From: a virus
Direction: 5' to 3' (one strand)
IMG/VR virus record: IMGVR_UViG_3300035145_001816
Coordinates: 1-30,078 of that record
Length of the DNA: 30,078 nt
Shown here: in pieces, positions 13,832 through 29,867 of the stretch
Layout: each line of letters starts with the position of its first letter
How positions within the stretch are numbered: position 1 is the first letter of the stretch
Notes under the pieces: generated by a model
What the model was told of the DNA's origin: nothing
Seen by the model: only the letters and a program-made list of their open reading frames with translations
Databases searched by the model: none
Translations under genes and position numbers: made by a program

Positions 13832-16800
13832 ATGAATACATTTAACTACAATTCATCAGAAGTAAACTATTATGTATCGACAGACTTAGGGTCAATTGCT
13901 GATCCAGTATCGTCTACGGTAGATAATGGTGATACTGCCTATGATTTAGTAGTTAGTGGAGATTATATTGTAACTGGTGATGTTTTAGTAAATGATTTCG
14001 TAGAACAAGATTATGATGAAATCAACTTTACTGAAACAACATATCCATTCGGAATTATCAAGATTGGTAGTGAGGTAGCACCTGCTGCCACAGTAGTATT
14101 TGTAGCAAAACCAGAACCTATAAGACTTTATACTAAGTCGATTTCTGTAAGGAAACGAGCTTGGGTTGGATCTGGAACATTATTTGAACTTTCTAATGGT
14201 TTAGAACGAGTTGCTGCGCCATATATTGGCGGTTCTGGACCTCTGCGAGTTTCTGGCGCTGCCGAAGATAGCGCAACATTTAAATTCACGGAGGAATCCG
14301 TCAAGACCTATGGTGCCGATGTTGACTTTGGATTAGTCACAGGTGCCATAGGTTCTTCTGTTGATTATGGACAAACGACAGATGTTGTTGATGAAGGAGA
14401 AACAGATCATGGCGACATCTTAATTGGTGATGGATTACCATATGGATTATTCACATTTGCTGGTGGTAATACCACCGATGTAAGAATTAAGGCGTATCAA
14501 GGTTCAGGATCTGCGACCATTTCTGGTCAGTTATCCGAGCAGTTTAATGAGCCAACGCCACAAATTTATATTGTAAATAACCTTCGTTATGGAAGGATAC
14601 CAAGTCTCTTCAGAGTATATAATAGTGTCAATCCAGACGCATTCTCAAGAGCATCATATATCGGATCTGGATCTTTATTTGAGATCGGTCAGAAGGACGA
14701 AAAGGCAGTATTCGTATATAATGTTAGTGCTCCAGCACCAGAAATTGTACTGGCTCCTTGGAATGGAACTTCAGAATATACTGGAAGTAACATCCATGCT
14801 GTAGCATCTGGATCTGGCACAAGTTCGACTAATGGATTTAATTCCAGTACAACAACATATTGGAAGTTTACTGCTCAAAGTGTAAGTAATACTTATGGTG
14901 ATGACCCAAGAATACTTACCTTGGGTCAACTTGACCTAACAAATTATAATCAGTTTGAATTGACCGCGATTGCGGGCACTAGTAATAATGGCGGAGAGAA
15001 TTGTGATGCCGATGAAGATCTTGAGATCTCTTACAGTATTGATGGCGGAACCACATATACTCAAATTACTGTTCTTGATGCTGAAGACGAAAGATTCACT
15101 GGAAGTACTTTTGGTCTCGTAACAGTTGATATTCCAGCAGCAGCAAAAACTAGTAATGTAATATTAAAATTCCACCAAGAAAAACATAGTGGTACTGGGT
15201 TTGATGAATGGGGTATTGAATATGTTAAGTTATTAGAAAATACTGAAGGTTCAGGTCAAGTATATGGAACAATTGGTTCGGTTGATCAAGGAACTGTTGA
15301 TCAGTCTGCTGGAACCAATGAAGATTATGGAACTGTAACTACTCCATTCACAAATGGAATCCTGAATTATGGTCAATTAAATCCAGGATTATTCAAGTTT
15401 GGTAATGTTGATATTACTGGTCAGGCAGTAACACCATTTCCAAGATCATATACTGGCAGTGGACAACTCACTTCTGCTGGTGGTCGTGCTACCGTTCAAT
15501 TTACTGAACCAGCACTTCAGGTTTATAATTATGGTCTTACCCAAAATCAAACCAGTCAAGGTGAATTCCTCAAGTTTGGTGGTACTGCTGCTGAGTCTAC
15601 AGCAAATGTCCCACCAGAACCAATCGGTGCTGCTGTTACCGCTGGTTCGATTTTCTCTTCTGGAGAAAAAGAAGAAAGTATTACATTCGATTATAATTTA
15701 GAATCTATTGTATATCTTGGTAATGATATTGATTATGGTTCGGTAACAACATCTAGTTCTGGTAATGAAGATCTTGGGTTACTTACTCAACCTACCACAA
15801 ATGGTGAGGTAAGTTATGGGCAGGTATTAATTACATCCATTACATATCCATATGGTGGATTGTTCAAACTCACTGGTGGTGATAGGGCACATGCTAATCC
15901 AAAAGCATATCTCGGATCTACTGCCGAAATTAATATTACTGGTGGAGCAACTGAGAAGTTTACTTCTGGTGCTGGTGAATCCACAGTTCTCTTCAGAACT
16001 TCTGGTGGTGATGCCGATGTCATTATCAAAGTATTTACTGGAGAAGGATCGCTATTCCATATTGGAGATAGGGTTGAGAAGAAAGTATATAGTTATAATC
16101 CTTCTTCAATCGTTAGCATTGAGCAGTCAGTTGACTCTGGTCTCATATCGAGTGCCACCACACAAACAGATGATTATGGTTCAGTATCTTCTGCGTATGA
16201 ACCACCTACACAAGATTATGGTGATGTAATCACTCTTCCTGGAGAAGAGAATCCATTTGGATTATTTGAAATTAGTGGTTCTGCTACTGAAGAGTTCTTC
16301 CCAACATTTGCTTGGAATAGAAAGAGTCCCGCAATTAGAATCTTCAATGAGCAGCAGGATCCTGCTGACTTTAGATTCATGCCTCACTGGAGGTCTCGCC
16401 ATCTTCTCGGGACTCCAACAATTAGAAATGCTCCCGATGGTGAATTTAATACTTATGCAAGAGTCAGACCTTACATTGGTTCAGGATCACTCTTCAGTAT
16501 CGGTGATAAGCTCGAAAGAGTAGCATACGATTATAACGAATCTTCAGTAGCAGACTTTACTGTTGGTGGTGATTATGGATTCGTCAGTTCTTCGTCAACA
16601 ACAAATGTCGATTATGGTTCAGTTACTAATGTAGTAACTGAAGGTGAATTTGATAATGGTCAAATTGTAATTACTGATATTGAGTATCCTCTTACAGGAC
16701 TCTTCTCGTTTACTGGATCTGCTGCAGGTCAGTTCATCCGTGGTCCTTACAACGCAAGGAACGGATTTATCAGATTCTACAAAGGTCAGAGTGCTGCTAC

Positions 16801-19750
16801 TGACTTTAGATTCATGCCTCATTGGAGAGGTGTTCCTGATGAAGCGCATATTATCTCTGGTTCTGCTGAAACTCCAAGAGCAAGAGATTTCGTTGGTTCT
16901 GGATCACTCTTCCATATTGGCGATAAGATTGAGAAGAAAGTATACAGATATTCTAGCGATTCTGTTGTTGAGTTTGAAATTGGTTCTGATTATGGATCTA
17001 TTGCCAATAATCCAACTACAACTAGTGATCTTGGTAGTGTTACATCCACCACTCCAGGTGGAGAAATTGATAATGGTCAGGTATTAATTACTCAGACCAG
17101 GCAACCTGTTACTGGTCTGTTTAGATTCAGTGGAGAATGTACTGAGAAGAAATCTTCTATTCCTCCTGCCGAAAGATTTGAAATCAGTATCAGTGGCGGA
17201 GCAGTTGAAAAAGTCACTTCTGGTGATGATGAGAATACCATCCTATTCAACTTCACTGGATCTCTCGCAGAGAGCTTCGGCAAAGGTCTCTATACAGGAG
17301 AAGGTTCACTCTTCCACATTGGCGACAGAATTGAAAGAGCAACATTCCATTACAATACTTCATCTATTGTTGATGGATCTTCATCCGAAGAATATGGATC
17401 AATTACAGATCCAGTAAGTTCTTCTGTTGATAATGGATCTGTGGCATCTGATTATCTGCCACCAAATACTGATCGTGGTCTTGTCATTACAGTTCCTGGT
17501 GATGAAAATCCATTCGGAAGACTGTTTGGAATTACTGGTGCTGCCGTCAAGAAAGAGATCAACTCTCATGTCGGTAGCGGATCTCTCTTTACTCCTGGTG
17601 GTGCTGCTGAGGCTGCCTCTTGGCAGACACCTGAAGAAACCTTCCTTCTCAAGATGCGTGGTGGCGCAGTTGAGAGACATGTTGAGAATTGGGTCGGCAC
17701 TGGCAACATTAAGATTAAGGAAGAGACTCCTCTCGCTCCTAATGCTGCTATTAGATTCCGCCCATGGTGGAGAGGTGTTGGTGGAATTAACGTCAAAGGA
17801 TTTGGTGACGTTGATGATATTCTCGTCAACTACGTCTCTAGAGGCGGAACGCTTAAAGTTTACACCCATGATGAGGGTGATGAATGGCGTAGATATCGTC
17901 CATCACCTCGTTATGTTAACTCCGTATATGGTAAGATCGGTGGATCCGCATTTGTTCAGGGTGTATCCGACAATCGCAAGATTAATGTTTATGGATATTA
18001 TGGTGATGATAGAGATCCAGGAACTTCTGGTTCACTCTTCACATTCAATAGTGGTACAGAGGTAGCTGCTTACAACCCAGAAACAGATACAGTTCTGTTT
18101 AATGCTTATGGATCTTCGCCTTCTAAGTGGAATCCTGCTTGGACATCACGTCCAGATGGATCTCCTAGACTGTCTGGTACTCCAGGATTACAACTTAGAT
18201 TTAATATCTTCACCAATCCCGAAGGTGAAAGCGCAAGAATTTCTGGTACTACAGGTCTTAAGATTGGTCTTAAGTATGATGGCAGCGGTTCTCTATTCGC
18301 ACTTGGTGGATCTACCGAGACTCGTGGATTCAACCCAACAACTGATACTGTTCTGTTCAGAGCAAGTGGCACTCCAGTTGTTCTGTTCTCCCTGTTGCAT
18401 ATTGGATCTGGAACACTCTCCAGTTTCGGTGGAGCAGCAGAATCTAGAACAATTGATGCTCCTACAAGCACAGTTCTATTTGTACCTTCTGGTACTGCTG
18501 TACCTGTTATCAGTCTTTCCCATATTGCCGAAGGTTCTGTATCACTCAGTGGAAATCTTTCCGAGAGTCAGACCGATGTTTATGCTGGCGAAGGTTCACT
18601 CTTCAGTGCTGGTGGTTCCGCCGAAGCAGTTTCTGTTACTGAAGCAGAAAGTACAGTTCTGTTTGTGCCATCAGGTACAGCATCAGATTCCAGAACGAGA
18701 TCTGCTGTTGCTGAAGGCAATATTACAATTACTGATATCGCAGACGAGGCATTCGCAAGACCTTATATTGGCAGCGGATCACTCTTCTCTGTTGGTGGTC
18801 TCTCTGAATCTGTCGGCGTAGCAGAAGAATCTACAGGTCTCTTCGCCTTTGTTGGCAACGCAACAATTGAGAGATCTAGAGACTTTATTGGTTCTGGATC
18901 TCTGTTCTCTGTCGGTGGTGCTTCTGAAGTCACAGCAGCGTCACCTGATCTTGATACAGGATTGTTCGCAATTTCTGGATCTGCTGCTGAAAGTAGAGCA
19001 GCAATTATTGTTGATAATGGTGGTTCCACCTTCGTTTATGGTAATGGTGAGGAAGCATATTCCAGAATTTATGATGGTGAAGGATCGCTCTTCTCTGTTG
19101 GTGGTGCTACTGAAGTATTCTCCAATGCTGCTCCAGAAAATACAGTTCTTTATGATATCGATGGTCGTGGTGTTGTCACCAGAACCAGAGGATTTGAAGG
19201 TTCTGAATCCATCAATGTCTTCAGTGAAGATCTTATTCCTGTTGTCACACTTTCTTATATTGGATCTGGAGATCTCACAACATTCGGTGGGGCAGCAGAA
19301 TCTAGAACAATTACTTCGGAGAGCACAGTACTCTTCACTCCAAGTGGAACTGCTAACGAAAGCTTTACTAAAGCAATCGTTGATAATGAAGGATCTGCCA
19401 CAATTTCTGGTGGTGCATCTGATATCAAACTTACTCGCTCTGCCAATGTATTCGCATATGTTAGCACAGATGGTCAAGCAATCGAAAGACAGACAGATCA
19501 TTACACTGGATCTGGTTCTCTCTTCGGTCTCAATAGCGCAACTATTGCTAGAGCAGTTGATTATGATGAAACTTCCGTTGGAGCACAAGGAGAAATTATC
19601 TCCACAAACCTCTTTACGTTCAATGGAAGTAATCCAGGTAGTGTTACTAGAATCACACAACCAGGAACTGCTAGATTTAAAGTTACTGGATCTTCGGTTA
19701 ATGTACTCAGGTTGTTTAGCCCCATAAGAATTTTCGGCACGATAATATAA
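13832..19750 (+). CDS. Giant repeat-containing virion protein (GSGSLF repeats)
   Basis: This 1972-aa protein is made mostly of two alternating repeat types. About two dozen degenerate copies have the form Y-GSGSLF-xx-GG-xx-E, often followed by an STVLF strand. About eight copies of a longer unit have the form DYGSV-n-DNGQVLIT-n-P-GLF-FTG, the clear ones mainly before residue 1240. Residues about 305-470 break the pattern with a jelly-roll-like domain (LTLGQLDLTNYNQFELTAIA; LEISYSIDGGTTYTQITV) that resembles carbohydrate-binding modules. A MPHW-R motif recurs near residues 850 and 995, and a related RPWWRG near 1310. There is no signal peptide or catalytic motif. The ATG at 13832 follows ACGGAGCACGG. 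The protein is probably a long fibre or whisker that reaches from the baseplate or neck; the place of assembly is a guess. Confidence 0.75.
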   Translation: MNTFNYNSSEVNYYVSTDLGSIADPVSSTVDNGDTAYDLVVSGDYIVTGDVLVNDFVEQDYDEINFTETTYPFGIIKIGSEVAPAATVVFVAKPEPIRLYTKSISVRKRAWVGSGTLFELSNGLERVAAPYIGGSGPLRVSGAAEDSATFKFTEESVKTYGADVDFGLVTGAIGSSVDYGQTTDVVDEGETDHGDILIGDGLPYGLFTFAGGNTTDVRIKAYQGSGSATISGQLSEQFNEPTPQIYIVNNLRYGRIPSLFRVYNSVNPDAFSRASYIGSGSLFEIGQKDEKAVFVYNVSAPAPEIVLAPWNGTSEYTGSNIHAVASGSGTSSTNGFNSSTTTYWKFTAQSVSNTYGDDPRILTLGQLDLTNYNQFELTAIAGTSNNGGENCDADEDLEISYSIDGGTTYTQITVLDAEDERFTGSTFGLVTVDIPAAAKTSNVILKFHQEKHSGTGFDEWGIEYVKLLENTEGSGQVYGTIGSVDQGTVDQSAGTNEDYGTVTTPFTNGILNYGQLNPGLFKFGNVDITGQAVTPFPRSYTGSGQLTSAGGRATVQFTEPALQVYNYGLTQNQTSQGEFLKFGGTAAESTANVPPEPIGAAVTAGSIFSSGEKEESITFDYNLESIVYLGNDIDYGSVTTSSSGNEDLGLLTQPTTNGEVSYGQVLITSITYPYGGLFKLTGGDRAHANPKAYLGSTAEINITGGATEKFTSGAGESTVLFRTSGGDADVIIKVFTGEGSLFHIGDRVEKKVYSYNPSSIVSIEQSVDSGLISSATTQTDDYGSVSSAYEPPTQDYGDVITLPGEENPFGLFEISGSATEEFFPTFAWNRKSPAIRIFNEQQDPADFRFMPHWRSRHLLGTPTIRNAPDGEFNTYARVRPYIGSGSLFSIGDKLERVAYDYNESSVADFTVGGDYGFVSSSSTTNVDYGSVTNVVTEGEFDNGQIVITDIEYPLTGLFSFTGSAAGQFIRGPYNARNGFIRFYKGQSAATDFRFMPHWRGVPDEAHIISGSAETPRARDFVGSGSLFHIGDKIEKKVYRYSSDSVVEFEIGSDYGSIANNPTTTSDLGSVTSTTPGGEIDNGQVLITQTRQPVTGLFRFSGECTEKKSSIPPAERFEISISGGAVEKVTSGDDENTILFNFTGSLAESFGKGLYTGEGSLFHIGDRIERATFHYNTSSIVDGSSSEEYGSITDPVSSSVDNGSVASDYLPPNTDRGLVITVPGDENPFGRLFGITGAAVKKEINSHVGSGSLFTPGGAAEAASWQTPEETFLLKMRGGAVERHVENWVGTGNIKIKEETPLAPNAAIRFRPWWRGVGGINVKGFGDVDDILVNYVSRGGTLKVYTHDEGDEWRRYRPSPRYVNSVYGKIGGSAFVQGVSDNRKINVYGYYGDDRDPGTSGSLFTFNSGTEVAAYNPETDTVLFNAYGSSPSKWNPAWTSRPDGSPRLSGTPGLQLRFNIFTNPEGESARISGTTGLKIGLKYDGSGSLFALGGSTETRGFNPTTDTVLFRASGTPVVLFSLLHIGSGTLSSFGGAAESRTIDAPTSTVLFVPSGTAVPVISLSHIAEGSVSLSGNLSESQTDVYAGEGSLFSAGGSAEAVSVTEAESTVLFVPSGTASDSRTRSAVAEGNITITDIADEAFARPYIGSGSLFSVGGLSESVGVAEESTGLFAFVGNATIERSRDFIGSGSLFSVGGASEVTAASPDLDTGLFAISGSAAESRAAIIVDNGGSTFVYGNGEEAYSRIYDGEGSLFSVGGATEVFSNAAPENTVLYDIDGRGVVTRTRGFEGSESINVFSEDLIPVVTLSYIGSGDLTTFGGAAESRTITSESTVLFTPSGTANESFTKAIVDNEGSATISGGASDIKLTRSANVFAYVSTDGQAIERQTDHYTGSGSLFGLNSATIARAVDYDETSVGAQGEIISTNLFTFNGSNPGSVTRITQPGTARFKVTGSSVNVLRLFSPIRIFGTII
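16367..16827. repeat. In-frame DNA direct repeat, 435 bases apart
   Basis: A 26-base segment beginning GACTTTAGATTCATGCC at 16367-16392 recurs at 16802-16827 with one mismatch. The shift is 435 bases, or 145 codons, so reading frame is kept. It encodes DFRFMPHWR in both copies. The length of the shift matches one full module of the repeat protein and suggests a recent duplication or gene conversion. Confidence 0.85.
18401..19312. repeat. In-frame DNA direct repeat, 858 bases apart
   Basis: The 54-base segments at 18401-18454 and 19259-19312 begin ATTGGATCTGGA and end in GCAGCAGAATCTAGAACAAT plus T. The last 30 bases differ at one position. The 858-base shift equals 286 codons and keeps frame. 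Both encode IGSG-L--FGGAAESRTI. Confidence 0.85.
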
Positions 19751-20035: not shown

Positions 20036-23000
20036 ATGGCAAAACGCTTACTTCAAAAATATGAGTTTGTACCAGCAGAGGATAAAATTATCCTTGATGG
20101 TAATATTGATAGGAAGAGACTCCTTCTTATCACAAACATGGAGGACAATGAGCTCCTCTATAACTTTGCGGACAGTACTTTAGGATTAACTTCTTATAGT
20201 TTTGATAGCACCACAGAGAAGACAACAATTGTCTTAGCAAAAAATTGTGGTTTGATGTCTGCTTCAGATTCACTGCAGATTTTCTTTGAGGGAGATACTG
20301 TAAAATTTGAACCTAGTGAAACATTTGTTGACCCAGTTTCCAAGTTCAGAGTTTCTACACCACAGAACCTTATTGATACTGACTTTGAATATGGTCCCCA
20401 GGCTTCAAAATGGGAAACTATTCAATTAATTAATAATGTTCCTTCGTTCTACTCTAGTACTTCCGACACTTCAATTGCTTTCATTGAAGAAGTAAACACT
20501 ACTGCTGGGAGTGATCTTATTGAAGTTGTGTGTGGATTTGATCACGGTCTTTTGGTAGGAACGCCAATTACTGTACAGGGTCTTTCTAGCGCAAGTGCTG
20601 AGGGTGCTTATCTGGTACAGTCTATTCCAACATCAACTACCTTTACATATAAAGGAAGAGCAAATCAACCTGCCAGTGAAGATGTAAGCGGTGTTTATAC
20701 GTCTATTATTCCTGGTCAGTTTTACGAAGGTTCTCAAATTGCGGTAGATGAAGCTGAGGGTATTACAGCTGACTTCTTCAATGTTCCTGTTACGGTAAGA
20801 GTTGTATCAGATCTTACTTTAACGACAGCGGTAGATTCAAGTTTTACTGTTGATAAGACAATCACTAGTGATAGTGGAGCAACAGCAAGAATTTCACATG
20901 TTGGTTCAAATGTACTTTCTGTAGATAATATTGTTGGATCCTTTAATGATGGTGATGTTTTATCTACCACAGGCACCAGTAATACATTAACTATTGATAC
21001 TGGTGGAGTTGGTGGTGGAAATAATAAACTTTATATTGATGGAGTACAGCAAAATACATATAATCTTTCTAAGAGAGCGATTTATGTATTTGATATCTCA
21101 GACTCTTCTATGTCTGGGCATCCATTTAAATTAAGCGATACTGCTGATGGTACTCATGGTGGTGGAACTGAATATACTACATATGTTTACGAAAATGGTA
21201 CTGCTGGTACTACGGGCGCTTATGTAAGAATTTATGTAACGAATTCTACTCCAGATTTATACTATTACTGTGGTCAACACGCTGGAATGGGTGGATCTTT
21301 CCCTACCGTTGATGCTACTACTTCTAGAATTTTCCTAAAGACACAATCTGAGCACGGATTTGCGGACGATACAAATTTCTATTTTGTAAATACTGTCGCA
21401 CCCAAAATTCTTCAAGTTACTGATCCAACGGCAACAGCTCCCGATGGCAGACCATTTGTTGATGTGGTTCAGCAAACTCTTGTATCAAATACTAATGATA
21501 ATGATGAGTATATCCCATACAATTATGAATCTACTTACACAGAGAGATTCGCAGAAACAGATGTAGATTATACCAATGATCGTATTACTGTTGCTGGTCA
21601 TAGATACCACAATAGTGCTGCTGTCTTGTATTATCCAGCTCCAGGAAATACTCCTATTGGTGGATTAAATAGAATGTTGGTTTATTATGTCAATGTAATT
21701 GATGCTAATACTATTGAACTTCATCAATCACAAAGACTTAACAATAAAGTTAATCTTTCTAACTCAGGAACATGGGATTCTGGTAAGCATTGCTTAGGTC
21801 TCTGTTATAACGTTTATCGTGAGTACAAGGGATTCGGTGCTTCCTATACTTACTGGTATACCTATTATCAAACTTTTGGTGGAACTTATTCTGGATATGA
21901 TTTCTCTAATAATACTGGAGACAATAGCACTAGCTATGGATTAGGTGGACAACAGTGGACACACCTTGTTCCATTTAGTTGCAGCAGATCTGGATTCAGT
22001 GGTCATAACTATTTCACTTTAAACAGATATAATCAGTATTTTGCTGGCAGTAACGCTAATTGGGTTCCAAAAACTTATGGATATCATGTCCAGACATTAC
22101 CATTAGGAACTGGCACACAATGGCAAGGTAGTTATGATTTCATTTCAAATGATGATCATAATGGTGTTCAAATGTCTGGTAATGCTAACTCCAGCAACAA
22201 ACATTACATGTGGGGAACTAGCACATATTCTTCATATTATAACTACATGGGCACCATGTATGTTAATAGTGTTAATTCCAGCTATGCTGAATTATATGGT
22301 AGTGATTATAACTATTGGCAATATGATGGTTACTTCTTCGGTTATTACTTCAACTCTGGTGGTGTAGATAGATATTTTAATAGTGTTAATAGTGATGGTA
22401 ATACTAACATGTATTACATGTTAGTCAAGAGAAATACATCGACAAATGATTCCTTCTACAAAGCTAATCACGGATTCCAAACCAATGATTTAGTTGACGT
22501 TGTTACAACTGGTAGTGGTATCAGATATTGGACAAGTGGAACCTCTATGACATATATTGGTAATGGATCACAGGTTTACATTGATAGAATTGATGACAAT
22601 CGTTTTAGAATTAAGTCTAGCACTGGTGCTTCACCATATCGTATTGCTGGTGTAGATGGATCTGCAGATATTAGTTTTGATGCAGTTATTACCAACCCCA
22701 CAAAGAATAGTTTCTATATTTCTGAGCATTCATTCTCTAATAATGAAGTTGCTACATATAGCGTAGATTCAGGTGGTGTTGCGGTTGATGGTCTTACTGA
22801 TCAGACAGCATATTATGTAAAGGCTATTGATGGTAATAGATTCCAACTTGGTACTACAGTTAACTTCACTAGTGAAGTTACACTCGGATCTGGACAAGGA
22901 TCTGGTGCTCAAATCTTTGAAAATACAACTGCTGACTTTGGTGCTGTTGATGGTTCTTATACAACCACAACTGTTATTGGCGACAAGGAACTTGAAGTAC

Positions 23001-25789
23001 GAATTCCATTTAAGCTTTCTCCTGCTCAAAAAGCATTTGATGGCACTACAGATGTTAATACAACTAGTGACTATATCCAAATCAACAATCACTTCTTTAC
23101 CACTGGTCAAAGAGTCTTCTATGATGCTCGCGGAAATACAGCAATTGGTGGTCTAACAGACAACAAAGATTATTTCATTATCGCTCTCGATGATGAATAT
23201 TTCAAACTTGCTGATAGTAAAGCAAATGCTCAGAATGGAGTTGCTGTTTCTTTAACACAAACACAGTCTGGAACACATGCTTTTATTAGCTCAAATCTTT
23301 CTGGTCTTGTAGGTGGTAATGGTACTGTAAGTGTCACCAATGGTTCTAGAATCGTAATTGGTGATGGAACTGGATTTAAGAGATTCTTCAAAGTTGGTGA
23401 CGAATTTAAGATTGTCGATGACACAACCACACCTGGAACCGTTATCACGAAGAGAATTACTGCTCTGAAAGATGATGAAGAACTTCTCGTAGATACTGCT
23501 TATACAGTAGATCGTAGTGGTGAGAAATATCTGATTCCTTCTTACATCTATGTACGTCCTGATGGATATTATCTCCACAGACCATTTGATGGTGGCATGG
23601 AAATCGCTACTTCACACTCGCCCGATGGTTTGATTTGTCGTCAGACTCGTAAGTACTTCCGTTATCAGTCAGGTAAAGGTATCCAAACTTCGTTTGCGAT
23701 TAACTTCATTCCACAAATTCTGATTAACGATCTTTCTTACGTTCCACAAGGATCGCAAGTAACAACAACAGCTACTGGAGCTTTAGGAAGTACTGTAATC
23801 ACAGTTACTGATGCTACGGGAATTATTGTTGACATGCTTGTTACTGGCGATGGTATTCCTGACAATACTACTGTGTCGGAAATTGATGGTAATGATATTA
23901 CTCTCACAATTGCTTGTGATGAAACTCTTTCTGGTGTTGATAACGTAGTATTTTCACCAGCAAGATATGCTCACATCACGACAAGTAAACCACATAATGT
24001 CTTAACCAAGACATCAATTATCATCGCAAACTCTGATGACACTAACTTTAATGGTGAGTACCCAATTTCAACAATTGTCGATGAATATACATTAAAGATT
24101 CTCTTGAAGAATGAACCAAGCCTTTCTAAGTCTGGTGGATTCCCATCATTCTCAGTTATCGGATGGAATAATTCATTCGTAAGAGCAGGTATGTTTGACT
24201 TCCAGAACGGATTCTTCTTCGAGCATGATGGTGCTACTTTGAATTGTGTAAGAAGATCTTCAGTACAACAGTTACAAGGAACAGTCAACGTAACTAAGAG
24301 TAGTGGAGTTATCACTGGTGTTGATACTCAGTTCCAGGCTCAGCTTAATGCTGGTGATATGGTTGTAATTCGCGGAATGAGTTACAAAATTGTGAAGATT
24401 AACTCCAATACTTCAATGTCGGTACAACCATCATATAGAGGAGTTTCTGCCGAGCAAGTTAGCTTGACTAAGACAGTTGATGTCAAAGTTGGTCAGGCAA
24501 ACTGGAGTGTTGATCCTTGCGATGGAACTGGTAAGTCTGGTTATGTTGTTGATCTTCAGAAGATTCAGATGTGCTATATCGATTACTCTTGGTATGGTGC
24601 TGGTAAGATCCGCTTCGGATTTAAAGATCAGGAAGGTCATGTTAAGTACATTCATGAATTTGTTCATAATAACAAATTACAAGAATCTTACTTCAGATCT
24701 GGTAACCTTCCCGCACGTTATGAAGTTGAGAACATTGGTGCTCCATCATATGTACCAACTCTGTTCCACTGGGGTACTTCAGTCATTATGGACGGTATGT
24801 TCCAGGATGACGAAGCATATCTGTTCACGGCATCTGGCGACATCTTCAAGTTTACTAATGATGTTACTCAGACAGCATCGACCAACAGTGGTCCTATGAT
24901 CTTCCGTGTACCAAATGATTGGACAACATCATACTATTATATTAGATTACCTTTTGCTAGTTCTGATGCTAGTATATTGACTAATGGTACTCTGATGTTC
25001 AACACTAGTGCTGGCAACAATTTCTTTGTTGATGGCAGACCAGTTGATTCACGTTCCAGAACTTCAGGTTCTACATATTATGTTTATATCCTGTATAAGG
25101 AAGGTACTCAAGAACTCTTCCCAAGTGGATATCTGAATACCGTTGTAACTAAATTGGGTGGATCTGGTTATAGTTATCAGGGATATAGTTATTCAGACCG
25201 TGCTTATACATATAACTTGTCTGGAACTCTCGCTAGCGGAACTTCATTCAACGTTGGTGCTGCTGCGGGTGGTGAAAACCTGATTCCTACAAACATTCCT
25301 CTGATTACTATCAGACTCGCTCCATCTGTTGACTCATCACTTACAGGTTCTCTTGGATCTAGAGAGATTATCAATAGAATGCAACTTAATCTCCAGTCCA
25401 TGGGTATTCTTGCTTCACACGAAACTGAGATTACTCTGGTTCTAAATGGTCTCTTGAATAGTGACGCATATGAGAATGCTTCTTCGCCTTCTCTTTGCCA
25501 ACTCTTGAAGCATGGTCCAAATGATGAACTCGCAGGTGGTCAGGAAATTCTTTCCTTCCGTGCTCCTGGTGGTGGTCTTGAGGGCAACAGAAGACTTACA
25601 GCAACTTCTGACTTTGATCTTACTGAACTCAGTGCTCTCGGTAACTCAATTATTGGTGGAGACGGTGTGTTCCCCAATGGTCCAGACATCCTAACGGTTG
25701 TCGCAAACTGTGTTGATACAACTGGTGTATCACAACAAAATCCTTACACGATTACAGCTCGTGTAACCTGGAAAGAATCACAAGCATAA
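20036..25789 (+). CDS. Giant virion structural protein with cupredoxin-like insert
   Basis: This 1917-aa protein begins MAKRLLQKYEFVPAEDKIIL, like a conserved large structural protein of T4-like marine phages. Residues about 325-425 look like a cupredoxin domain: GHPFKL (His362), then YYYCGQHAGMGG with Cys412, His415 and Met418. This is a full type 1 copper ligand set with the short C-x2-H-x2-M loop of amicyanin. Repeated modules of the form H-F--ND-V-Y--GG-AI-GLTD--YYV--ID-N-F-L occur near 500-570, 810-880, 900-960 and 1010-1070. Residues about 585-770 are a Tyr/Gly/Asn/Ser-rich stretch without clear repeats. The C-terminal 700 residues include a WGTSVIMDGMFQDD segment and an acidic, ordered end. 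AAGGAA at 20021-20026 supports the start. It is probably a baseplate-periphery or fibre protein. Confidence 0.8.
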   Translation: MAKRLLQKYEFVPAEDKIILDGNIDRKRLLLITNMEDNELLYNFADSTLGLTSYSFDSTTEKTTIVLAKNCGLMSASDSLQIFFEGDTVKFEPSETFVDPVSKFRVSTPQNLIDTDFEYGPQASKWETIQLINNVPSFYSSTSDTSIAFIEEVNTTAGSDLIEVVCGFDHGLLVGTPITVQGLSSASAEGAYLVQSIPTSTTFTYKGRANQPASEDVSGVYTSIIPGQFYEGSQIAVDEAEGITADFFNVPVTVRVVSDLTLTTAVDSSFTVDKTITSDSGATARISHVGSNVLSVDNIVGSFNDGDVLSTTGTSNTLTIDTGGVGGGNNKLYIDGVQQNTYNLSKRAIYVFDISDSSMSGHPFKLSDTADGTHGGGTEYTTYVYENGTAGTTGAYVRIYVTNSTPDLYYYCGQHAGMGGSFPTVDATTSRIFLKTQSEHGFADDTNFYFVNTVAPKILQVTDPTATAPDGRPFVDVVQQTLVSNTNDNDEYIPYNYESTYTERFAETDVDYTNDRITVAGHRYHNSAAVLYYPAPGNTPIGGLNRMLVYYVNVIDANTIELHQSQRLNNKVNLSNSGTWDSGKHCLGLCYNVYREYKGFGASYTYWYTYYQTFGGTYSGYDFSNNTGDNSTSYGLGGQQWTHLVPFSCSRSGFSGHNYFTLNRYNQYFAGSNANWVPKTYGYHVQTLPLGTGTQWQGSYDFISNDDHNGVQMSGNANSSNKHYMWGTSTYSSYYNYMGTMYVNSVNSSYAELYGSDYNYWQYDGYFFGYYFNSGGVDRYFNSVNSDGNTNMYYMLVKRNTSTNDSFYKANHGFQTNDLVDVVTTGSGIRYWTSGTSMTYIGNGSQVYIDRIDDNRFRIKSSTGASPYRIAGVDGSADISFDAVITNPTKNSFYISEHSFSNNEVATYSVDSGGVAVDGLTDQTAYYVKAIDGNRFQLGTTVNFTSEVTLGSGQGSGAQIFENTTADFGAVDGSYTTTTVIGDKELEVRIPFKLSPAQKAFDGTTDVNTTSDYIQINNHFFTTGQRVFYDARGNTAIGGLTDNKDYFIIALDDEYFKLADSKANAQNGVAVSLTQTQSGTHAFISSNLSGLVGGNGTVSVTNGSRIVIGDGTGFKRFFKVGDEFKIVDDTTTPGTVITKRITALKDDEELLVDTAYTVDRSGEKYLIPSYIYVRPDGYYLHRPFDGGMEIATSHSPDGLICRQTRKYFRYQSGKGIQTSFAINFIPQILINDLSYVPQGSQVTTTATGALGSTVITVTDATGIIVDMLVTGDGIPDNTTVSEIDGNDITLTIACDETLSGVDNVVFSPARYAHITTSKPHNVLTKTSIIIANSDDTNFNGEYPISTIVDEYTLKILLKNEPSLSKSGGFPSFSVIGWNNSFVRAGMFDFQNGFFFEHDGATLNCVRRSSVQQLQGTVNVTKSSGVITGVDTQFQAQLNAGDMVVIRGMSYKIVKINSNTSMSVQPSYRGVSAEQVSLTKTVDVKVGQANWSVDPCDGTGKSGYVVDLQKIQMCYIDYSWYGAGKIRFGFKDQEGHVKYIHEFVHNNKLQESYFRSGNLPARYEVENIGAPSYVPTLFHWGTSVIMDGMFQDDEAYLFTASGDIFKFTNDVTQTASTNSGPMIFRVPNDWTTSYYYIRLPFASSDASILTNGTLMFNTSAGNNFFVDGRPVDSRSRTSGSTYYVYILYKEGTQELFPSGYLNTVVTKLGGSGYSYQGYSYSDRAYTYNLSGTLASGTSFNVGAAAGGENLIPTNIPLITIRLAPSVDSSLTGSLGSREIINRMQLNLQSMGILASHETEITLVLNGLLNSDAYENASSPSLCQLLKHGPNDELAGGQEILSFRAPGGGLEGNRRLTATSDFDLTELSALGNSIIGGDGVFPNGPDILTVVANCVDTTGVSQQNPYTITARVTWKESQA

Positions 25790-26050: not shown

Positions 26051-26082
26051 AAAAAGGGAGGTCTTAGGACCCCCCTTTTTTT
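26051..26082. terminator. Bidirectional intrinsic terminator between convergent genes
   Basis: AAAAAGGGAGGTC (26051-26063) and GACCCCCCTTTTT (26068-26080) form a stem with one A-C mismatch around the loop TTAG. It has a T-run on the plus strand and, by symmetry, one on the minus strand. It ends the late structural transcript and the opposing minus-strand operon. The stop codon of the minus-strand oxygenase gene lies at its edge (26081-26083). Confidence 0.85.
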
Positions 26083-26944
26083 ATGTTTTTATTTGTGCTA
26101 TTTGTCTAGATATTTTATCTTTTCCTGCACGATTACATACAGCACCTACTAGTGAATACCGATGTTGTTTACTTCTAGCATCGTACTCGATGTTGTGCCA
26201 ATGACAACCTTTATATAAAGTAACTGAATTAAATTCAGCAGGAGCAAAGTGATATTTGATATAGAAATCATCTCCCTGAAACGTGGAGAATAACTCATGG
26301 TCGTTAGCTTCTTTATCTTGAGTATGACCTTCCCTATACTTTTCAAATATAGGAATATAATTATGTTTATTTCTAAGTGGAGATTTTAATTCAAATACGT
26401 TATGAAAAATATCATCCTCTCCTGTTTCTGGATCAATAAACTTACATTTAAAAAAATTAGTACCAGATTTACAATCATTTACTTCAGATAAGTAAATATT
26501 TGCCGCAAATGAAAATGGGTCAATATGAGGATAATTATTACCTCTATTCATTTTCATACCAGGATAAAACAAATTTGTGTAATAATCCCACATTAACGCA
26601 CTATTTCGATAGTGTATCATGCGATGATCAAACATGATTTTATATAATTTTTCAGTTATTTTAGATACAAATCTATCATCCATCATTTGCTGAAGTCCAG
26701 TGGAAGCACTTCTATCTTCTTTATAGGTTCCTTCCACCATACTTCTATAACTGTCTTCGGTTGGAAATTGAGAGATAAAATCTCTAAGTTCTAGAGGTCT
26801 TTTTAAGAAATTTTTAATTTTCAAATAACTTAATTTCTCGACAGTTACATATTCAATTTCCATATCAGCATTAAGTTCGCAGATATGATCAAGTTCTGAT
26901 CTACTATATGAGGCAATAGGATTAGTAAGTAAAATATTACTCAT
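26081..26944 (-). CDS. 2OG-Fe(II) oxygenase-like protein with intact metal triad
   Basis: Starting at the ATG at 26944, the protein has 287 aa. A double-stranded beta-helix oxygenase is suggested by YPHID (His140, Asp142), followed by a strand (FAANIYLSEVNDCKSGTNFF). The distal part is CHWHNIEYD (His248, His250), with an arginine at 262 in HRYS. The His-x-Asp...His...Arg pattern is what 2-oxoglutarate/Fe(II) dioxygenases use to bind iron and co-substrate. The fold resembles the DUF6445-type family, named from memory. The substrate is unknown. A start eight codons upstream would add MKKQKKNI but overlap the preceding gene further; the chosen start overlaps it by 8 bases. It is the last gene of a three-gene minus-strand operon. 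The protein is homologous along its length to the gene at 26937-27830. Confidence 0.75.
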   Translation of the reverse strand: MSNILLTNPIASYSRSELDHICELNADMEIEYVTVEKLSYLKIKNFLKRPLELRDFISQFPTEDSYRSMVEGTYKEDRSASTGLQQMMDDRFVSKITEKLYKIMFDHRMIHYRNSALMWDYYTNLFYPGMKMNRGNNYPHIDPFSFAANIYLSEVNDCKSGTNFFKCKFIDPETGEDDIFHNVFELKSPLRNKHNYIPIFEKYREGHTQDKEANDHELFSTFQGDDFYIKYHFAPAEFNSVTLYKGCHWHNIEYDARSKQHRYSLVGAVCNRAGKDKISRQIAQIKT

Positions 26945-27830
26945 AATATTCTTCTTCTGCTTTTTCATTTTTGCTATGCGTAACCATGTCGGTATACCCA
27001 GTTTCTAAACTAAATCTACAGTTAGTTTCTTTGGTTGAATCATATGTAATATCATAGAAATAATCCCCTGGAAGCAGAAGTAATCTATTATATTTAAATT
27101 CAATACTAAAAACTTTTTCAAAAACGTTTTCATCAACTGCTGGTACAAATGGAGAAATTGCCTCACTTGAAGTTGCGTTATTTAAATCGGATGAAATTAT
27201 TTCTTTTTCTTGGATTGTTGCTGTGTTCATGATCTCAGTAATTGATGACCAATATTTACCACAAGATTTAACTTTATAATAGTTAATTTCACCACTTTCA
27301 ATATCATCACTTAAAAATGCTTTAAACATATATTGAAATCTATCAACAGTGGGAGTATTATTCCCACCTATAGAAAGCATACCAGGATAATATAATTGAG
27401 TGTTGGAAGTGAATCCAGATAATTCCGATTGTACATCGTATGGAGAGAAATTATCTTCATACATGTATTCGTGTGGTGGAATAAAATCTTGTTCGACTAA
27501 AAATTTATAATAATTAAATGACAGGTCAACAAGAGTTTCAGACATAATTTTTTGCTGAAGTCCAGGTGGTCTGATTTGTAAGTTACCACCATCTGCTAAG
27601 TCTTTAGCAGTTCTAACTCCGCTATCATATATTTTATGAGTATCTTTAGTATATGTATCAGCAGGAATACTTTTCAGATAATCAACTAAAAGTTCTGGAT
27701 TTTTAAAAGCATTATCGATGATAATGTAGGTCATTCCATCTACCATCGATTCTTGGATTTTTGAATCTGAATTAAGTTGGAAAATATCTACTAAATTAAA
27801 TTGCTTAATGTCGTCAAATTTTACTGCCAT
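26937..27830 (-). CDS. Probable inactive paralogue of the neighbouring oxygenase
   Basis: This 297-aa protein aligns with its downstream neighbour: GLQQK with GLQQM, LYYPGM with LFYPGM, GNNTPTVDRF with GNNYPHIDPF, and DYFYDITYD with CHWHNIEYD. The metal histidine of the first motif is replaced by Thr161 and both distal histidines by Tyr257 and Tyr259. Asp163 and an arginine at 272 remain. Iron binding by the usual triad therefore seems impossible. The chain is otherwise intact and well kept, so it does not look like decaying DNA. It could form a hetero-oligomer with the active copy or bind a substrate. It begins with ATG at 27830, sharing one base with the stop of the upstream gene, and overlaps the next gene by 8 bases. 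Confidence 0.75.
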   Translation of the reverse strand: MAVKFDDIKQFNLVDIFQLNSDSKIQESMVDGMTYIIIDNAFKNPELLVDYLKSIPADTYTKDTHKIYDSGVRTAKDLADGGNLQIRPPGLQQKIMSETLVDLSFNYYKFLVEQDFIPPHEYMYEDNFSPYDVQSELSGFTSNTQLYYPGMLSIGGNNTPTVDRFQYMFKAFLSDDIESGEINYYKVKSCGKYWSSITEIMNTATIQEKEIISSDLNNATSSEAISPFVPAVDENVFEKVFSIEFKYNRLLLLPGDYFYDITYDSTKETNCRFSLETGYTDMVTHSKNEKAEEEYYE

Positions 27831-28355: not shown

Positions 28356-28673
28356 ATGTATGCTAAAATTTATTTATTTGAAAAAGAAATGACCCTTGTT
28401 TCGGATATCCCTATCTTACAACTTGCTTTTGACGCAGAAAAAAAGCACGGTGAAGATACTCACATGGTGATCGAAGTAGTTCTAAAAGAAGATGTTCCTG
28501 AGTCTATGTTGGATTCTAACGAAGTTACTACAGATGATGTTTTATGGTGGGTTGAATTTGAAGATCAGCAAAAAATCTTTGATGAATTTGACTGTGTTAA
28601 AAAATTTCTTTTAGAAGAAGCAGTTAAGAAAGAATTTGTTTATGCTAAGGATGAATTAAATGAGTCAAAATAA
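28356..28673 (+). CDS. Small acidic protein of unknown function
   Basis: This is a 105-aa protein rich in Asp and Glu. The N-terminus forms a strand (MYAKIYLFEKEMTLVSD), followed by a helix (ILQLAFDAEKKHG), a strand pair (THMVIEVVLKEDVP) and a C-terminal helix (DCVKKFLLEEAVKKEF). The start at 28356 has no Shine-Dalgarno site; an alternative ATG at 28389 is possible but would lose the first strand. A TAAATA at 28349-28354 lies too close to serve as a late promoter for this ATG. It overlaps the next oxygenase gene by 14 bases, so it is probably co-expressed with it. I do not recognise the family. The acidic nature could point to DNA mimicry or protein binding, but nothing specific supports this. 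Confidence 0.7.
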   Translation: MYAKIYLFEKEMTLVSDIPILQLAFDAEKKHGEDTHMVIEVVLKEDVPESMLDSNEVTTDDVLWWVEFEDQQKIFDEFDCVKKFLLEEAVKKEFVYAKDELNESK

Positions 28674-29250
28674 TATAGTAACTTTTTTCCCTAAAGCAGT
28701 TTATTGTGAAGATGGTGTATACAAAGATGGGTTGTCTAACCTAGAGGACAGCATTAGAGTATTGGCAGATAATACAAGAAGAAATTCTGTATTGAATGTA
28801 GATTCTTCTCATAGAACAATTAAAACTATTCACAAGAGACCAGAGTTTACTCATTTCACAAAAGAAATTAAAAAAAGAATTACAAAATTTTTAGTGATTT
28901 ATGGATACGACCCCATGATGACTAGAGATGTTGAAATCTCTAATATGTGGTTTAATATTAGTAAAGAAGGTGATTTTTTATTTCCACACACACATCCAGG
29001 TTCTCTATTATCTGGTGCTTTTTATGTAAAGTCTACGACTGAAAATAAAATTTTATTTTATGAGCATTATAAAAATACTTACATAGAACCATTAAAAATA
29101 ACAGATCTTTCGACCACAACAAAAGATTTTGATTGTGTTCCTGGAAGACTGCTTTTATTTCATAGTGAACTTGAGCACGGCACTCCAATACAAAGAAGTC
29201 CTGGAGAAAAAATTGTAATTTCTTTTAATACTCGCTTAGTAAACAGATGA
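28660..29250 (+). CDS. 2OG-Fe(II) oxygenase-like protein (TIGR02466/2OG-FeII_Oxy_5 type)
   Basis: This 196-aa protein has the marks of the small phage 2-oxoglutarate/Fe(II) dioxygenases: FPHTHPGSLLSGAFYV (His110, His112), and PGRLLLFHSELEHGTPIQ with the distal His173, followed by EKIVISFNTRL. The iron triad is therefore His-x-His...His rather than the usual His-x-Asp...His, as I recall for many relatives with the HPGS-LSG motif. The place of the usual 2OG-binding arginine is taken by Lys184; Arg179 and Arg192 are nearby. Length matches the family (about 200 aa). It overlaps the upstream acidic gene by 14 bases and the next gene by four (ATGA). Substrate unknown; protein hydroxylation is one idea for such cyanophage genes. 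Confidence 0.8.
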   Translation: MSQNNIVTFFPKAVYCEDGVYKDGLSNLEDSIRVLADNTRRNSVLNVDSSHRTIKTIHKRPEFTHFTKEIKKRITKFLVIYGYDPMMTRDVEISNMWFNISKEGDFLFPHTHPGSLLSGAFYVKSTTENKILFYEHYKNTYIEPLKITDLSTTTKDFDCVPGRLLLFHSELEHGTPIQRSPGEKIVISFNTRLVNR

Positions 29251-29867
29251 TTGACGATCTATTTCTTTTTAGTGAAAAAATTCTGTCCGAATCTGAGATA
29301 GATGTAATTAAAAATTACATTTTAAAAAATGAAAATAACATAAAACAATTAGGTCCTGATAATTATCCAGGAACCTCTGAAGATTCTTTGACTGGAAGAC
29401 ATGCGTTCTTTAATTATCTTCATACTCAAGATATCGGTGAAGGAATTCTTTTGCCCAAGTTAAAAAAAATTATTAAACAATTGAATCTTGAACCGCCAAT
29501 TATAATTCAATGTTGGGCAAATATTTTTCGTAACGGTGAAGGAATATCAATTCATCGCCATGGAAATATGAGACAGAAGTTTTTGTCTGGTAATTTGTTT
29601 ATCTGTGGAAATACTTTACCTGGAACAACATATTATAAAGGAGATTTTTCCACCAGTACATCTGTTGACATAGAGAATGAACCTGGGGTTTTAAATATTT
29701 TTCCATCCTATAATATGCATGGAGTGAAGGAAAATCTTACTGAAGAAACTAGAATCTCTATGGCAATTGATATTATTCCATATAGTGATACAAATCATTT
29801 TAAAAAACTTGACATGATCTACAAAAAATCGCCAAGAAGGTATATCAAACTTTATAGTTTAGACTGA
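29247..29867 (+). CDS. Second small 2OG-Fe(II) oxygenase-like protein
   Basis: This 206-aa protein has a fold pattern like its upstream neighbour but with low sequence identity. WANIFRNGEGISIHRHGNM holds His103 and His105. FPSYNMHGVKENLTEETRIS holds the distal His158 and a properly placed Arg169, which fits 2-oxoglutarate binding. The LSGNLFICG strand corresponds to LSGAFYV in the neighbour. N-terminal helices occupy residues 10-80 and a basic tail (KKSPRRYIKLYSLD) ends the protein. The start overlaps the previous stop as ATGA, so translation is probably coupled. It is followed by a late-promoter/terminator composite and the neck gene. Substrate unknown. Confidence 0.75.
   Translation: MIDDLFLFSEKILSESEIDVIKNYILKNENNIKQLGPDNYPGTSEDSLTGRHAFFNYLHTQDIGEGILLPKLKKIIKQLNLEPPIIIQCWANIFRNGEGISIHRHGNMRQKFLSGNLFICGNTLPGTTYYKGDFSTSTSVDIENEPGVLNIFPSYNMHGVKENLTEETRISMAIDIIPYSDTNHFKKLDMIYKKSPRRYIKLYSLD

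Follow-up and report, generated by a model that had tools for sequence, protein, structure and literature searches.

What is a complete set of type 1 copper ligands doing inside a giant structural protein of a virus? The question arises from the 30,078-base record of a marine cyanophage-like virus, the whole of which is referred to here as the window. A single uninterrupted open reading frame at 20036-25789 on the + strand encodes a protein of 1917 amino acids (P0001), and the initial annotation proposed that His362, Cys412, His415 and Met418 of this protein form a copper site of the cupredoxin type. Translation of the reading frame places all four residues exactly as claimed. Three of them lie in the sequence CGQHAGM; the window has seven large virion ORFs, and no other C-x2-H-x(2-4)-M occurs in any of these.

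P0001 is a virion structural protein of the T4-GC_863 / phrog_5838 family (E 2e-179), with homology over regions at its N- and C-termini. The nearest isolate homologue is a 2087-amino acid 'virion structural protein' of the Synechococcus phage S-BM3, which matches at 35% across 61% of the length, and is encoded immediately upstream of, and adjoining, the neck genes gp13 and gp14. Shorter T4-GC_863 orthologues with the same annotation are found in S-PM2, Syn1 and S-RSM4. The proteins of these four cyanomyoviruses make one family with P0001, with matching termini, yet a profile search of the whole genomes found no cupredoxin-like domain in any of the four orthologues. We therefore regard the domain as an insertion in the lineage of the window. 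The IMG/VR contig L201 encodes a P0001-type protein with the domain in place, as in the window. Genes lying near P0001 match cyanophage-type virion structural, tail-fibre-assembly and 2OG-Fe(II) oxygenase families. Further along P0001, residues 560-830 approximately (window 21720-22520) are rich in Tyr, Asn, Gly and Ser (13% Tyr, 11% Asn, with Trp and His also elevated). This section contains a C-x3-C, matches no family, and is possibly a self-associating fibre segment.

The cupredoxin-like domain comprises residues 314-432 (20975-21331, + strand). Two AlphaFold2 models were generated from different alignments of window and locus sequences, with pLDDT values of 83.8 for the first and 89.5 for the second. 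The latter (pTM 0.83) is a confident prediction of an eight-strand Greek-key cupredoxin barrel. Numbered within this 119-residue model the ligands are residues 49, 99, 102 and 105, and DSSP assigns strands at 51-54, 95-99 and 106-109. The predicted ligands occupy the canonical type 1 positions. His362 (21119-21121, + strand), a predicted equatorial copper ligand, comes right before strand 4, and Cys412 (21269-21271, + strand), the predicted thiolate ligand, ends strand 7. The loop connecting strands 7 and 8 carries His415 (21278-21280, + strand), the second predicted equatorial ligand, and Met418 (21287-21289, + strand), predicted to be axial.

Comparison of the second model with the PDB using Foldseek returned cupredoxins at each of ranks 1 to 12, with E-values from 1.2e-3 to 5.3e-3 and probabilities of 0.99-1.00; no E-value fell under 1e-3. 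These matches include AcoP at the top (E 1.2e-3), a pseudoazurin with an engineered amicyanin loop (2.7e-3), rusticyanin (3.6e-3) and auracyanin A, and domains of nitrite reductase are also among the best structural matches. Re-alignment with VIA-align gave a Z of 9.1 for rusticyanin, with an rmsd of 2.6 Å over 100 residues. A Z near 8 can be non-specific when taken alone, but here all 50 of the VIA rows are cupredoxin-fold copper proteins, with no unrelated fold among them. The first model, made from the other alignment, led independently to the same answer (Z 8.5). The barrel that had been suspected from the sequence is thus recovered in the predicted structure, and to the extent that the model can be trusted the domain almost certainly has the cupredoxin fold. 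The proposed C-x2-H-x2-M loop length of amicyanin receives indirect support, in that proteins with engineered amicyanin loops and amicyanin itself are among the Foldseek matches.

At the level of sequence, the tie to known cupredoxins rests on profile-profile alignment and on sister domains. Scans of the window domain with Pfam and NCBIfam gave nothing useful, with no Pfam model above its cut-off, and phmmer found zero matches in the PDB. Our profile A1 gave only weak PDB matches, the second being pseudoazurin aligned on the ligand loop (E 0.46), and the matches of the broader profile A2 were mostly spurious G-protein gamma peptides. Profile-profile alignment using hhalign against PF00127 domains, drawn from Pseudomonadota and one archaeal genome, gave 92.9% for A1 (E 3.7e-7) and 81.7% for A2 (E 1.1e-5), whereas none of the 20 column-shuffled controls, for which A2 was used, exceeded 0.85%. 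The Cys-His-Met loop is cleanly aligned in these comparisons, the column of the first His is not. Related phage domains provide stepping stones. The sister domain of the Prochlorococcus phage P-HM1 matches Prochlorothrix plastocyanin (1b3i) in plain phmmer with E 6e-5, and a copy in P-SSM2, the best relative for PF00127, scores 20.5 bits where the cut-off is 21.2. The P-SSM2 copy also matches PF13473 (Cupredoxin_1) at E 4e-4, just below the Pfam cut-offs. Since the window domain itself lies under every Pfam cut-off, we assign it only to the cupredoxin superfamily, outside the PF00127 family.

If the four residues form a working site they should not vary freely among homologues. We assembled 192 distinct homologous domains, an effective number of 68 at 80% identity, a set that is skewed to fairly close relatives. 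His362, Cys412 and His415 are present in every one of the 192, and Met418 in 190. The remaining two have Gln; both are cellular, from SAR86 and Porticoccaceae MAGs, and Gln takes the axial position in one phage copy too, that of P-RSM6. Gln is the axial copper ligand in stellacyanin. The mean column identity across the set is only 43%. The ligand columns were masked in the profile, and 155 loci were retrieved in two scans with 48-amino acid queries free of all four ligand residues. Tested in this way, selection bias is rejected as the source of the invariance. The combination of the C-x2-H-x2-M motif with His362 is not therefore a matter of chance, and the reading of these residues as a type 1 ligand set is upheld. 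Purifying selection on the four-residue metal site is supported, and although there has been no measurement of metal, it is very likely that the domain binds some metal in nature.

A further histidine, H374 within a conserved GTH, is kept in 189 of the 192 close relatives. We rejected it as a fifth ligand because it is missing from distant isolate copies in which the site is intact, and it is probably not a metal ligand. The residue following the first His is Pro, Ala or Gly in the family, compared with Asn in plastocyanin, azurin and amicyanin, a departure that weighs against our interpretation.

More distant copies were sought by running profile A2 on 19 isolate records. The domain is present in 17 of these and was not found with this profile in the other two, both roseophages; two weak matches (W06:92166 and W13:142068) were left unclassified. 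Among 42 classified copies in the 17 genomes, 29 have a complete site: four each in P-SSM2, P-HM1 and MED4-213, two each in P-TIM68, P-SSM7, P-RSM6, Bellamy and S-MbCM7, and one each in S-TIM5, HTVC028P, Mosig, Melnitz-3, Syn1, S-BM3 and S-RSM4. They include C-x2-H-x2-M, C-x2-H-x3-M and Gln-for-Met variants, all compatible with known type 1 chemistry. The remaining 13 are degenerate. Cys, His and Met have all gone in 12 of these, and the S-PM2 copy retains Cys alone of the three; the first His is retained in four of the 13. S-PM2 and S-CREM1 are the phages with the fewest copies, or with degenerate ones alone, in this survey. These real losses demonstrate that our method is able to detect loss of ligands. 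In L328, L341, L345, L348 and other degenerate isolate copies the Cys-His-Met loop is lost and the signature of the fold retained. The persistence of degenerate copies in several phages indicates that the barrel is of some value even when the site is missing. Where present the site is kept whole, and its Cys, His and Met are usually lost together, which points to a working metal center and not a relic.

Two explanations would deprive the site of its significance. The domain might be an Ig-like sandwich unrelated to cupredoxins, in which the Cys-His-Met cluster is a coincidence. Antibody and titin Ig domains do occur lower down the Foldseek list, but the top ranks and every VIA row are taken by cupredoxins, and the profile-profile and transitive sequence links lead to plastocyanin and PF00127; we find this scarcely credible. 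Alternatively a cupredoxin could have been captured as a beta-sandwich spacer, its ligands persisting through descent alone, a structural relic of the kind that the initial annotation had allowed for. The survival of 13 of the 42 distant copies without a site speaks for this. Yet a relic would be expected to drift residue by residue, and we observe that Cys, His and Met have disappeared jointly from degenerate copies, together with three ligands that do not vary over the 192 sequences despite the low mean column identity and an effective number of 68. We thus disfavor the relic, which is highly improbable.

The domain is far from being a peculiarity of the phage in the window. A tblastn search locates it in 63 phage records. 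These are without exception of marine type and comprise cyanophages, pelagiphages and Methylophilales phages. With a single 48-amino acid query, IMG/VR yields at least 531 stretches that are related; Foldseek domain matches in BFVD, which lacked a sequence check, were left out of the tally. The hosts of the phages include Prochlorococcus, Synechococcus, SAR11 and OM43, and one genome may hold as many as four intact copies. The proteins that bear it match PHROG families of tail fibre, baseplate wedge, baseplate wedge/tail-fibre connector and virion structural proteins, and because these are different families we conclude that the domain is a module shuffled among virion proteins. A domain of this kind had been considered unexpected in a virion. 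Its presence in a virion protein stands; restriction to the one phage is rejected. In a class of IMG/VR ORFs of about 1000 amino acids (L018-L080) the domain is N-terminal to a full major capsid protein. The example in L034 (2488-5565) encodes 1026 amino acids, with the cupredoxin-like domain at about 170-270 and a capsid part matching phrog_617 (E 5e-142) and PF05065. The roseophage capsid relatives CRP-811 and CRP-821 are without the domain.

Cellular carriers are surface proteins, which is consistent with extracellular use of the module, although among the 'cellular' matches some that come from SAGs and MAGs probably represent contigs of phages. In Marine Group II archaea (L088, L089, L091, L096, L097 and L099) the domain is at the C-terminus of lipoproteins, two of which (L088 and L089) have collagen-like repeats by Pfam, in a stalked architecture resembling that of a phage fibre. 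The SAR86 domain lies within a lipoprotein that also has cadherin, Ig and subtilase domains. A gammaproteobacterial MAG (L103, 977-6025) encodes a lipoprotein in which the cupredoxin-like domain is combined with Ig/cadherin repeats, a subtilase and a P-domain.

The closest solved folds are those of rusticyanin and AcoP of Acidithiobacillus ferrooxidans, with ligands identical in kind and order to those of the virion domain. However, both are free periplasmic electron carriers, the identity is only 12-16%, and their ligand loop is longer, whereas the domain is a module within a 1917-amino acid virion protein. Amicyanin has the same loop length of C-x2-H-x2-M, but its first His is followed by Asn where the window domain has Pro; there is no methylamine dehydrogenase context in the window domain, which does not match the amicyanin model TIGR02657. 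Plastocyanin (PF00127) has the fold and ligand set in common with the domain, which nevertheless falls below the PF00127 cut-off. Cyanophage petE genes encode plastocyanins that are free metabolic proteins, distinct from the virion domain.

We consider it likely that the domain is an exchangeable cupredoxin module with an intact type-1-like site, inserted into a virion structural protein of the T4-GC_863 family, although there are no metal data. The identity of the metal as copper is inferred from the ligand set, and is probable. That the domain is exposed on the particle, and there serves stability or contact with the host, is a tentative inference, somewhat short of an even chance. The virion protein probably folds free of metal in the host cytosol. 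Free copper is scarce in the cytosol, where virions assemble, and this counts against copper. By inference, the exposed site probably takes up copper (as Cu+ or Cu2+) at lysis or once the particle is in seawater. The metal-filled barrel would then lie exposed in the tail or baseplate region as a rigid adhesive or spacer, which copper stabilizes or which employs copper for host contact, and would stabilize the particle or assist that contact.

Other roles for the metal can be envisaged. The site could be purely structural, a Cys-His-His-Met staple holding shut the barrel of an extracellular adhesin domain, occupied naturally by zinc or Cu(I) and having neither a redox function nor one specific to copper. 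Zinc is also accepted by the type 1 sites of apo-cupredoxins, the carrier proteins are structural, the window has no evident gene for a redox partner, and the existence of copies without a site means that the barrel serves as a building block. Yet zinc sites normally do without a need for Met, and Met in 190 of 192 domains with Gln as sole alternative is the axial pattern of type 1 copper; moreover most Ig-like phage spacers do not require metal. A structural metal remains possible, if on balance unlikely. More speculative, and clearly less probable again, is a redox-active domain by which the virion exchanges electrons with carriers at the host surface or in the periplasm, or senses redox state on attachment. 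In its favor, electron-transfer cupredoxins have this ligand set, and the proteins nearest in fold (rusticyanin, AcoP and pseudoazurin) are carriers of electrons. Against this, neither a partner nor a second redox center was recognized, electron transfer by a virion has no known precedent, and copies of the domain are scattered over varied structural proteins. A redox function is possible, with the ligand set as its only support, but electron transfer is less likely than a role in stability or host contact. A copper-binding module displayed on the virion, for stability or host contact, is the most likely interpretation, though there are no binding data.

A known fold and site are found in a widespread and apparently new virion setting, and both the fold and the conserved type-1-like site are well supported. 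In the literature searched we found no description of cupredoxin domains in phage virions, which is not proof of absence. The prevailing view is of virions composed of protein and nucleic acid, and iron is the main transition metal discussed for tails. The closest published idea concerns HxH motifs in phage tail fibres such as T4 gp37, which bind iron and for which a role in adsorption and marine metal cycling has been proposed (PMC11705849). These 'Ferrojan horse' sites resemble the domain in placing a transition metal in a tail protein, but lie in a trimeric fibre, whereas in the domain one chain forms the predicted cupredoxin barrel, and the Cys-His-His-Met site is of a kind that suits copper.

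Because the site is preserved in hundreds of ocean phages, in proteins of the tail and baseplate and in others linked to the capsid, copper may have a role in the building or cell attachment of marine phages that has been unrecognized so far. A conserved copper-type site, present as many as four times in one genome among phages that infect Prochlorococcus, Synechococcus, SAR11 and OM43, would bring a metal cofactor into virion biology, offer a testable handle on adsorption of major marine phages, and connect virions with the cycling of copper in the sea. It is rather doubtful, though conceivable, that marine tailed phages display copper-loaded cupredoxin domains and use the copper in infection, for example by engaging host copper-handling or redox proteins at attachment. 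If so, the virions of the most abundant ocean phages would constitute a copper-binding pool, the copper counterpart of the iron hypothesis. Copies with and without the Cys-His-Met ligands provide natural controls for experiments, those that have lost the loop being the metal-free ones.

Some other genes of the window deserve mention. A protein of 1972 amino acids encoded at 13832-19750 has many diverged repeats of the type YxGSGSLFxxGG, and matches phrog_11522 and a Reelin subrepeat. Tandem genes on the - strand at 26081-26968 and 26937-27830, overlapping by 32 bases, each match phrog_1644 ('minor coat protein'), and an adjacent pair of 2OG-Fe(II) oxygenase genes (phrog_81) is found at 28660-29250 and 29247-29867.
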